Origin: Armatimonadota bacterium
GTDB taxonomy: Bacteria > Armatimonadota > Fimbriimonadia > Fimbriimonadales > ATM1
Assembly (NCBI GenBank): GCA_003577165.1
Contig: QEUM01000006.1
Span: 1-64,000, forward strand
Direction: 5' to 3'
DNA: 64,000 bases
Positions within the stretch are counted from its first letter, which is position 1; each line of letters opens with the position of its first letter. The position numbers were made by a program, and so were the translations under genes. Below the pieces are notes generated by a model. It was not told the origin of the DNA. It saw only the letters and a program-made list of their open reading frames with translations, and did not search any database. This document shows, in pieces, positions 2,498-5,297 of the stretch.

Positions 2498-3037
2498 ATG
2501 AGTCGTTCGATCCTCTGCGCTTTCGCCGCGCTGCTGCTCGCTCTTGCTTTCGGATGCGGGTCGAAAGGAGAGCCCGGAGCCCCGGATTCGTCTTCCGCGA
2601 AGCCCCCAACTGCCGATCCCGCGCAGCAAGGCGATGCGGACCTCACCGCCTTCGACCCGCATGACGCCCTCACCGACGAAGAAGCATCCGAGATCTTCAA
2701 ACAAAAAGTCCACTTGACGGATACCGAACAGGTCGGACAATTCCGCTCCACGCGAATCGAAAACGAGTCGAATTCGATCTGCGCCATGTTCCAAATCAGT
2801 TCGATTCCTTACACCGAAGAACAATTCGTAAGCGACGTCACGGAGCAGGCGAAGATTCTCGAGGCTCCAGTGACGGAGGTCTCCGGCTTAGGAGGCAAGG
2901 CGTACTTCATGGGGGACATGCTCATGCTTCACGTCGCGAATCGGTGGGTTCAGTTCGCGATCACGAAGCGGCCGGGCCTGGACACGAAGGCCGCCGCAAT
3001 CCGCCTCGCCAACACAACCGCGCCTCGGATCAAGTAG
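2498..3037 (+). CDS. Predicted lipoprotein, unknown function
   Basis: 179 residues. The N-terminus is a lipoprotein signal (hydrophobic core FAALLLALAF, lipobox LAFGC, Cys20), followed by a flexible Ser/Pro/Asp-rich linker to about residue 50 and a compact alpha/beta domain. I do not recognise the domain. Within it lie a DALTDEEASEIF helix and the end motif RPGLDTKAAAIRLANTT. The layout resembles outer-membrane-anchored sensor or binding lipoproteins. It has its own probable leaderless promoter and no obvious operon partner. Confidence 0.7.
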   Translation: MSRSILCAFAALLLALAFGCGSKGEPGAPDSSSAKPPTADPAQQGDADLTAFDPHDALTDEEASEIFKQKVHLTDTEQVGQFRSTRIENESNSICAMFQISSIPYTEEQFVSDVTEQAKILEAPVTEVSGLGGKAYFMGDMLMLHVANRWVQFAITKRPGLDTKAAAIRLANTTAPRIK

Positions 3038-3087
3038 GGCCACAGCCGAACTCCGAAAAATCTCTGGCACGGCGTCGATTTCCCGTG

Positions 3088-3093
3088 TATACT
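3088..3093 (+). promoter_or_regulatory. -10-like box, leaderless layout, for the redoxin-like gene at 3100
   Basis: TATACT ends 6 bases before the ATG at 3100, so transcription would begin at or next to the start codon. A convincing -35 element is not obvious (TGGCAC lies 17 bases upstream). Confidence 0.5.
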
Positions 3094-3099
3094 GAGCGT

Positions 3100-3702
3100 A
3101 TGGGTATGGAGGGCTCATCCTTCAATGCCAGCCCTGGGCCAGGAACAGGCTCTGCTCTGCTCTGCTCTGCTCTGCTCTGCTCTGCCTCCCTGCTCGTCCT
3201 TAGTCATCAGTTGGGGCTCGTGACGCCAGGACGTGACCCGCGGCAACGCGCCTCGCCGCCGGCATACGCCGAAGCGCAAGATCCCGAAGTCGGAACTGTG
3301 CCGCCGCTCCCCAGCACCGATGTGTTTGGGCGCTCCTTGCACGGGACGGGCCCAATTCATCAGAGAGTCATCGTGGCCGCCGGATCATGTAGCGACTGCT
3401 CGGCCAAGACCGCCGAGGAACTGATCCCAAAAGGCAGGCGCCTCCGTGAGACAATCGTCATCTACTTCGATTCTCTTGACAAGGTCAAGACTCATGCCGC
3501 GGGGATTCGAAATCAGGCCCTCATCGTCGCTGACCCTAATTTGACTCTCTATCGGTACCTCAACGCGGTGTGGACTCCACGCTACTATCTCGTCGATTCG
3601 CGACATCGTCTCGTACGCTTCGACACGACATTCGGCGGAACGCAGATCCCAGAGTGGGCATCCAAGCCGGTCGCGCCGAGCGCAGAACACAATGGAGGCT
3701 GA
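3100..3702 (+). CDS. Exported thioredoxin-fold-like protein with a CxxC motif
   Basis: 200 residues. The first 40 form a hydrophobic export signal whose core is encoded by a run of TCTGC repeats (ALLCSALLCSASLLVL). A proline-rich linker leads to a short redoxin-like domain: strand VIVAAGS then CSDC (Cys97, Cys100), strand ETIVIYFDS, and VWTPRYYLVDSRHRLVRF, which has the shape of the TlpA/AhpC strand plus cis-Pro region. It is shorter than usual, so assignment to the fold is inference. It directly precedes a pseudopilin gene (8 bases apart) and a cysteine-rich secreted peptide, so a disulfide or thiol role for neighbours is plausible. An alternative ATG lies at 3106. Confidence 0.6.
   Translation: MGMEGSSFNASPGPGTGSALLCSALLCSASLLVLSHQLGLVTPGRDPRQRASPPAYAEAQDPEVGTVPPLPSTDVFGRSLHGTGPIHQRVIVAAGSCSDCSAKTAEELIPKGRRLRETIVIYFDSLDKVKTHAAGIRNQALIVADPNLTLYRYLNAVWTPRYYLVDSRHRLVRFDTTFGGTQIPEWASKPVAPSAEHNGG
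3149..3185 (+). repeat. Pentanucleotide microsatellite inside a signal peptide
   Basis: Seven perfect tandem copies of TCTGC (3151-3185) preceded by GC, giving 37 bases of exact period 5 inside the coding region of the redoxin-like gene. Gain or loss of one unit shifts the frame; three units keep it. Confidence 0.97.
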
Positions 3703-3709
3703 CTTTCAA

Positions 3710-4297
3710 ATGAATGCTCGTCGCTCTAAAGCGCTAACTCTTGTGGAGTTGCTGATCTCCATCACTATCATTGGTGTAATCGCGGCTGTCGTTTTTCCGG
3801 TGGCTTCAAAGACGATCGCAGCAAGCAAGAGGTCGCAATGCGCAAGCAACCTCAGACAAATAGGCATCGGAATTGCCCTGTACCGATCTGATTACGACGG
3901 TGACGGCAAGTACGGGTACTGGGCGAACATGGGTTTGCCACCCAATCCGTACGGGCTCATCAAACTCAAGTACTTGACGAAAGAGGTGTTCGACTGCGGA
4001 GGGATCCCCTACCCCAACGGCGCGCCTCCGGAGTATCTTGCGATGAGTTACACCTCCGAAGATTGGGAATGGGCCAGAGATCGCGGAATGAAGTTCGAAC
4101 TGTGGGTCCCGTACGTACGAGTGTGGAAGGAAGAGTCCATTCTCGTCGCGGATTTCCACCACCCGCTCGGTGAGAACTGGGACAACGCTAACTCCATGAT
4201 TCACCCTCACCGTGCCATTGGTTTGTACCTCAACGGCTCGGTTATGACAAAGGTAAAGGCGGGAGATCCCGCAAGGCGTGCTTGGTGGCACGACTGA
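3710..4297 (+). CDS. Type II/IV pseudopilin (prepilin N-methylation domain)
   Basis: 195 residues. The N-terminus carries the prepilin leader and methylation motif, KALTLVELLISITIIGVI, with Glu at +5 of the mature chain and Ala rather than the usual Gly at the cleavage site. A long hydrophobic helix follows, then the SQCASNLRQIGIGIALYRSDYDGDGKYG region typical of the pilin-like proteins abundant in Armatimonadota and Planctomycetes. The rest is a globular domain with WxW and HPH motifs. It would be processed by a prepilin peptidase and assembled in the periplasm. GGAGG at 3694-3698 favours the start at 3710 over the in-frame ATG at 3692 that overlaps the upstream stop. Confidence 0.88.
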   Translation: MNARRSKALTLVELLISITIIGVIAAVVFPVASKTIAASKRSQCASNLRQIGIGIALYRSDYDGDGKYGYWANMGLPPNPYGLIKLKYLTKEVFDCGGIPYPNGAPPEYLAMSYTSEDWEWARDRGMKFELWVPYVRVWKEESILVADFHHPLGENWDNANSMIHPHRAIGLYLNGSVMTKVKAGDPARRAWWHD

Positions 4298-4307
4298 GAA
4301 CATCTCT

Positions 4308-4318
4308 AAAGGAGGAGG
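4308..4318 (+). promoter_or_regulatory. Strong Shine-Dalgarno site for the cysteine-rich peptide
   Basis: AAAGGAGGAGG ends 6 bases before the ATG at 4325 (9 before the next ATG at 4328). It is one of the best ribosome binding sites in the window and marks the following short frame as translated. Confidence 0.75.
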
Positions 4319-4324
4319 AAGAAG

Positions 4325-4660
4325 ATGATGAGCATAAGCTTCAGGTTAGGATTAGTTAGTATCGTGGGCGTGGCAGTCGGCATCGTGGCGGCCCAGGTGT
4401 ACGCTCACAGCTGAACTGGTTCCGGGTGTCCGCCCATATCTTGTTCGCTCGATTGCTCTCCGTCGCCGATAGGTTCCGGAACGCAGTGGTTCTGTGTGAT
4501 GCAATTCAATCATTGCTGCGAATGTCTGTATACGGTGAAAACATGCCTGAAAGACGGACAGTCATGCTTGGCACCACCGCAGAACCTTGCGCCCGCCGGG
4601 AGTTGGCGTGACCACAACGGCCCAGGGATCTGCAGCGGCGCGGAGTGCACGGCGTATTAG
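4325..4660 (+). CDS. Secreted cysteine-rich peptide with one in-frame TGA at 4412-4414
   Basis: Translation from 4325 gives a 29-residue export signal (two Met, Arg, then LGLVSIVGVAVGIVAAQVYA, likely cut before HS) and then a TGA. The same frame stays open for 81 further codons to a TAG at 4658. The downstream part is strikingly cysteine-rich, with 11 Cys (CPPISC, SLDC, HCCEC, SCLAPP, GICSGAEC among them), and looks like a mature disulfide-knotted secreted peptide. Reading the TGA as Cys or selenocysteine would give 12 thiols, an even number. Options are a recoded Sec codon, a recent nonsense mutation, or a sequence error. A 4-base stem GGGT/GCCC with loop GTCC starts 9 bases after the TGA, too weak to call a SECIS. 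It sits between the pseudopilin (27 bases) and the next gene (4 bases). No family is recognised. Confidence 0.6.
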
Positions 4661-4664
4661 TACC

Positions 4665-5297
4665 ATGCGCAGATTGACTTCAAAACCGGCCGTGATCGGA
4701 GCCATCGCAGTTTTCGTCCTGGCGGCTGCTTATGTGTTCTGGCCACGAGCCACGTTGGCAGACCACGCTAAGTCCGTCCTTCTGCAATTCGTAAACGGCC
4801 AATCGTCTGACCTACATACCTACTCGCCTCCGCACGAAATCGAAGCGGCTGGACTAAGTAAAGAAGCCTGGACGCAACTCTGCACAAAACTGATCGATCC
4901 CCGTACCGCTGCGTTTAGACAGAAATTCAGCCTCGTCAATGTCGAAACCTGGGAAGACAGAGGGGTCGCCGGTGCAGACGCACTGTTCGAGGGTCCAGCA
5001 GGCCTGCGCTACACGTTCTCTTGTCAAGTCTCGGCGTCCGACAGCGGCCCCAAGTGCCTCCTGCTGCAACTCTATAGCCAGACCTGGCTGATGGAAGCCG
5101 CGATGGACGGCATCGATGTATCGCAAACTGCAGAGATGCTTCAAGCGGGCCTGAAGGGGCAGGATAAGGACATCGCGGTCCTAAAGGCGCTGGGGATCAA
5201 GGGGAGAGTTGAGGAAGACCCGGATGAACCTCTGCTCACCTGGGAAGAGAGGAAGGAGAAACACCAGAAGATTCTTGACCAATACAAGGCCCAGTGA
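4665..5297 (+). CDS. Single-pass membrane-anchored protein, unknown function
   Basis: 210 residues. A basic N-terminus (RRLTSKPAV) leads into one transmembrane helix (IGAIAVFVLAAAYVFWP, about residues 12-28), then a soluble domain outside the membrane. That domain has the pattern of a small alpha+beta fold (LLQFVNGQSSDLHTYSP, AAFRQKFSLVNVETWED) and a charged C-terminal helix (LTWEERKEKHQKILDQYKAQ). I do not recognise the family. The start at 4665 lies 4 bases after the stop of the cysteine-rich frame, so the two are very likely cotranscribed. It is the last gene of the redoxin/pseudopilin/Cys-rich cluster. The same frame is open further upstream, but the membrane anchor fits the start at 4665. 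Confidence 0.65.
   Translation: MRRLTSKPAVIGAIAVFVLAAAYVFWPRATLADHAKSVLLQFVNGQSSDLHTYSPPHEIEAAGLSKEAWTQLCTKLIDPRTAAFRQKFSLVNVETWEDRGVAGADALFEGPAGLRYTFSCQVSASDSGPKCLLLQLYSQTWLMEAAMDGIDVSQTAEMLQAGLKGQDKDIAVLKALGIKGRVEEDPDEPLLTWEERKEKHQKILDQYKAQ

Follow-up and report, generated by a model that had tools for sequence, protein, structure and literature searches.

A candidate selenocysteine codon in a secreted cysteine-rich peptide encoded by a multi-copy gene cassette of Fimbriimonadales

The window, that is, the whole stretch of 64,000 nucleotides analysed here, contains a cassette of four genes on its forward strand. The first gene (3100-3702, within an open reading frame of 2944-3702; the start codon is uncertain) encodes a Trx-like protein with an N-terminal hydrophobic segment and a CSDC (CxxC) motif. 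The second (3692-4297) encodes a prepilin-like (pseudopilin) protein that scores above cut-off with both Pfam N_methyl (27 bits) and TIGR02532 (19 bits). It is followed by the gene of a Cys-rich secreted peptide (4325-4660), and then by a fourth gene (4665-5297), recognized by an order-wide search, whose product of about 210 amino acids has an N-terminal transmembrane (TM) segment and belongs to a family without a name. The prepilin is the sole product of the cassette with a known domain: the Trx-like protein has no match in Pfam or NCBIfam, the peptide has none in NCBIfam, and PDB sequence searches gave nothing useful. Elsewhere in the window, positions 815-1843 encode a secreted-looking RCC1-type repeat protein (Pfam RCC1_2, 172 bits, seven repeats).

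The peptide gene starts with ATGATG at 4325, behind a ribosome binding site (AAAGGAGGAGG, 4308-4318). According to hydropathy and a simple cleavage rule, its first 27 codons (4325-4405) specify a hydrophobic signal peptide, MMSISFRLGLVSIVGVAVGIVAAQVYA, which ends at a VYA/HS site. An in-frame TGA is present at 4412-4414; it is followed by 81 sense codons (4415-4657), which include 11 Cys codons, and by a TAG at 4658-4660, so that the product would have 111 residues with the TGA read. The first-pass annotation had described all of these elements correctly, as well as a GGGT/GCCC stem with loop GTCC that starts 9 nt past the TGA. That annotation dealt with the peptide alone, which we confirm; the four-gene cassette that provides its context had not been noticed.

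The part of the gene downstream of the TGA is coding. Among the 1742 TGAs in all frames and on both strands of the window, no other precedes an open stretch of 81 or more codons whose Cys fraction is 0.134 or higher. In addition, a family HMM built from 67 members, with the window sequence excluded, matches the post-TGA part alone with 20 bits (E 3e-7) and the full read-through frame with 31 bits; the E-value applies to a search set of 8 sequences, and composition bias affects the scores. The downstream part also has the Cys spacing of 12 other family members (see below). The earlier argument that this part is open by more than chance is thus borne out, and the gene has an in-frame UGA with coding sequence on either side, which is a criterion of a bacterial selenoprotein.

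The gene order of the cassette, namely Trx-like CxxC protein, prepilin, Cys-rich secreted peptide and TM protein, recurs in the order Fimbriimonadales. Most of the weak matches of a first single-sequence search with the peptide were chance matches; the best relative from that search, in genome G060, is flanked by a prepilin gene upstream and by the gene of a TM protein of about 200 amino acids downstream. Of the 113 genomes of the order, 64 match a profile of the TM protein, often at several loci. Upstream of it, a Cys-rich, signal-bearing open reading frame without an internal stop is found in 70 of 102 operons, although a few of these frames are short or doubtful. Prepilin-like frames are present in 91 of 99 cassettes, and 56 of the 99 also have a Trx-like frame upstream of the prepilin, nearly always with CxxC. 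The subfamily to which the window peptide belongs occurs in 25 of the 113 genomes, with two weak matches in the rest of the phylum, and is thus nearly confined to Fimbriimonadales. The window genome itself has further copies of the cassette. Altogether we observed a multi-copy cassette with a hypervariable Cys-rich peptide at about 100 loci (L042-L167), in addition to window positions 3100-5297. To our knowledge, no description, name or function is on record for this set of genes; however the TGA is read, the cassette appears to represent a multi-copy system of Fimbriimonadales that is so far undescribed.

Comparison of the cysteines points to the residue that the TGA may replace. In the window peptide, the spacing from the second to the tenth family cysteine (C2 to C10) is C-x4-C-x3-C-x12-C-x6-CC-x-C-x6-C-x6-C, and that of the member G041:C8 is C-x4-C-x3-C-x11-C-x6-CC-x-C-x6-C-x6-C; the C2-C9 spacing is common to 13 members, window included. 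The other 12 all carry a further cysteine (C1) 3-15 residues before C2. The window peptide lacks this cysteine and has its TGA 4 residues before C2. The first cysteine of the relatives is at position 2-8 of the mature peptide, commonly at 3, and by the simple cleavage rule the TGA is at position 3. When the TGA is counted as selenocysteine (Sec, U), 11 Cys and one U give 12, the commonest total among the relatives. Pairwise BLAST pairs HSUTGSGCPP of the window with HSCTDTWCPP of G060, placing Cys against the TGA, and H-S-U-T also resembles H-I-C-T of G081. In MAFFT alignments, where the TGA was written as X so that the aligner could not prefer Cys, three of the four modes put it one column past C1 and the remaining mode four columns past C1, within a stretch of variable length. 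Because of this offset, the placement of the TGA at C1 is good but not exact. On the question raised earlier, whether homologues have Cys, Trp or TGA at this site, the relatives point to Cys, either in the same column or beside it, the exact column being uncertain in MAFFT. The site forms neither a CxxU nor a UxxC motif, which counts against the Sec reading.

The genome is equipped to decode UGA as Sec. A search for the selA, selB, selC and selD genes had been proposed as a check, and SelA, SelB, tRNA-Sec and SelD are all encoded in the window genome, with scores above curated cut-offs; the assembly is a draft of 23 contigs and is 97.5% complete. SelA and SelD together are found in about half of the order. 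The SelD gene of the window genome (L106, G000:C18:275940-276878) codes for a selenoprotein, with an in-frame TGA at the active site (CAGUASKLG). Formate dehydrogenase alpha was considered as the source of a second SECIS and rejected, since its best copies, including that of the window genome (L227, G000:C21:7559-9562) and the best-matching relatives, have no in-frame TGA. It follows that other selenoproteins must keep the Sec system.

Just downstream of the TGA in the peptide gene, a SECIS-like hairpin of two helices is predicted by folding (4413-4446; apical stem-loop 4424-4435). The element can be written as UGA-ACUGGUUCC-GGGU[GUCC]GCCC plus an outer helix (MFE -10.1 kcal/mol), and the SelD element of the same genome as UGA-10 nt-UGGG[GUCAU]CCCA plus an outer helix. 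The first-pass annotation had called the stem weaker than a real SECIS. This view calls for revision, because the SelD apical stem is equally short (4 bp) and the isolated apical hairpins have energies of -4.0 (SelD) versus -3.8 kcal/mol (window). The window loop starts with GU, and its size and spacing are close to those of the SelD hairpin. The bSECIS criteria given in PMC13188914 are a loop of 3-9 nt, a stem of 4-16 bp, a spacing of 16-37 nt, a G in the first two loop bases and an MFE of -7.5 or lower. The window hairpin agrees with them in its loop (GUCC, G first and then U), its stem of 4 bp and its MFE; its spacing is 13 nt (16 with UGA), below the 16-37 nt range, and that of SelD in the same genome is 14.

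In a comparison of 19 SelD sequences from across the order, the SelD hairpin is kept at the same place, and at two of its base pairs both partners have changed. This covariation is modest, since its score was reached by 20 of 500 shuffles and the Leu-Gly-Pro codons also constrain the sequence. Hairpins as good as that of the window occur at the same place after 1.7% of the Cys codons in family genes and after 4.5% of the TGAs in the window; because the thresholds were set at the observed values, these are upper-tail frequencies and not a formal test.

The TGA has to be seen against the lesions in the rest of the family. In G006:C14 (L082, 1050-3120), a TGA occupies a column where 66 of 69 other members have Cys. 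This copy is ruled out as clean support for a second Sec member by the decay of its operon: a deletion has joined the Trx-like gene, which also contains a TGA at a non-Cys site, to the prepilin gene, and the latter is interrupted by a TAG. The copies G029:C20 and G060:C1:242154 are broken. Two members with lone TGAs were rejected as Sec candidates: that of G042:C12 (L114) is located where one relative has Trp and is not accompanied by a SECIS-like hairpin, and that of G071:C20 (L218) interrupts the signal peptide of a gene whose genome has neither a SelA nor a SelD match. A TGA in G006:C7 was taken as a normal stop adjoining the fourth gene and not as an internal one. The background of lone TGAs is thus about 2 in 80 family copies, and no second clean TGA-bearing Sec homologue was found among the family copies examined in the order.

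Because such a homologue was not found and lesions do occur in the family, the main rival of the Sec reading is a recent natural nonsense allele, in which the C1 codon changed from TGC or TGT to TGA, so that only a fragment comprising the signal peptide would be made while the rest of the cassette is intact. The decayed, broken and lone-TGA copies described above are its precedents; a single base change turns a Cys codon into TGA, which would make Cys a frequent target of nonsense mutations; and the other cassette copies in the genome could take over. On this explanation, however, the SECIS-like hairpin would have arisen by chance, at a frequency of 2-5%, in a genome that happens to decode Sec. 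Furthermore, the strong ribosome site is kept, and neither the 81 downstream codons nor the other, intact genes of the operon have a further lesion, unlike G006:C14 and G029:C20. We therefore prefer Sec to the nonsense allele, because four features combine in its favor: the place of the TGA in the Cys pattern, the hairpin, a genome able to decode Sec and an operon that is intact. We regard the nonsense allele as rather unlikely, though a serious competitor. The likelihoods that we attach to the readings in this work are judgements and not computed values.

A sequencing or assembly error, with TGC or TGT as the true codon, would need just one wrong base in a draft of 23 contigs. Such an error would have had to fall exactly on the C1 codon and upstream of a SECIS-like hairpin, which is unlikely a priori, and the flanking genes are free of frameshifts; we regard this explanation as very improbable. 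Slightly less probable still is passage of the TGA without selenium, either by insertion of Cys or Trp or by read-through yielding a minor full-length product. The otherwise open members with TGA at non-Cys sites (G042, G071) would fit such decoding, but a complete Sec system for UGA is already present, and TGA serves as the ordinary stop codon of both neighboring genes, that of the prepilin and the fourth one, so a general change of the genetic code does not apply.

Judging from the sequence, then, the UGA at 4412-4414 is probably read as Sec in a secreted disulfide-rich peptide. Among the explanations listed by the first-pass annotation, this one is mostly favored by the checks proposed there, through the decoding machinery and the Cys homologues, while the natural nonsense allele, also on that list, keeps the lesser likelihood given above. 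Under the Sec reading, the hairpin just downstream would recruit SelB with Sec-tRNA-Sec, and translation would continue for 81 codons. The residue replaced by Sec would be C1, the half-cystine that opens the usual set of 12 and immediately follows the signal peptide. Once the peptide is exported, its bonds would probably be oxidized or shuffled by the CxxC protein encoded in the cassette, and it may work with the cassette pseudopilin at the cell surface. More tentatively, and with slightly less than even confidence, we suggest that the peptide represents a new kind of secreted selenopeptide, in which Sec is located at a structural N-terminal half-cystine of 12, served by a dedicated Trx-like CxxC partner, and forms a selenenylsulfide bond instead of a catalytic CxxU.

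If true, the Sec reading adds to Fimbriimonadales an exported, disulfide-rich selenoprotein family that is not a Trx-fold redox enzyme. Given that the peptide has no NCBIfam match and that we found no counterpart of it in a catalogue of 119 selenoprotein families (PMC13188914), the family would be new. In the literature searched, we found no report on the selenoproteome of Fimbriimonadales. Automatic annotation would miss genes of this type because a TGA after the signal peptide leaves a tiny open reading frame.

Among known systems, the Sec form of SelD in the same genome shares with the peptide gene the in-frame TGA, the short GGG/CCC hairpin with an outer helix and the decoding machinery. 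However, SelD is an enzyme of the cytosol whose Sec belongs to a catalytic loop, whereas the peptide, which lacks an enzyme domain, is predicted to be exported. Selenobacteriocin (TIGR04081) and KCU-star (NF033934) are, like the candidate, small selenoproteins without a Trx fold; compared by their table entries in PMC13188914, they differ in their Sec motifs, SGUG and CU. As for the second gene of the cassette, it has an N-terminal methylation motif like the prepilins and DUF1559-type pseudopilins; 79 PulG-type pseudopilin genes are on record for Fimbriimonas ginsengisoli (PMC4072686). Unlike DUF1559-type pseudopilins, the prepilin of the window has a Trx-like protein, a Cys-rich peptide and a TM protein as its cassette partners.
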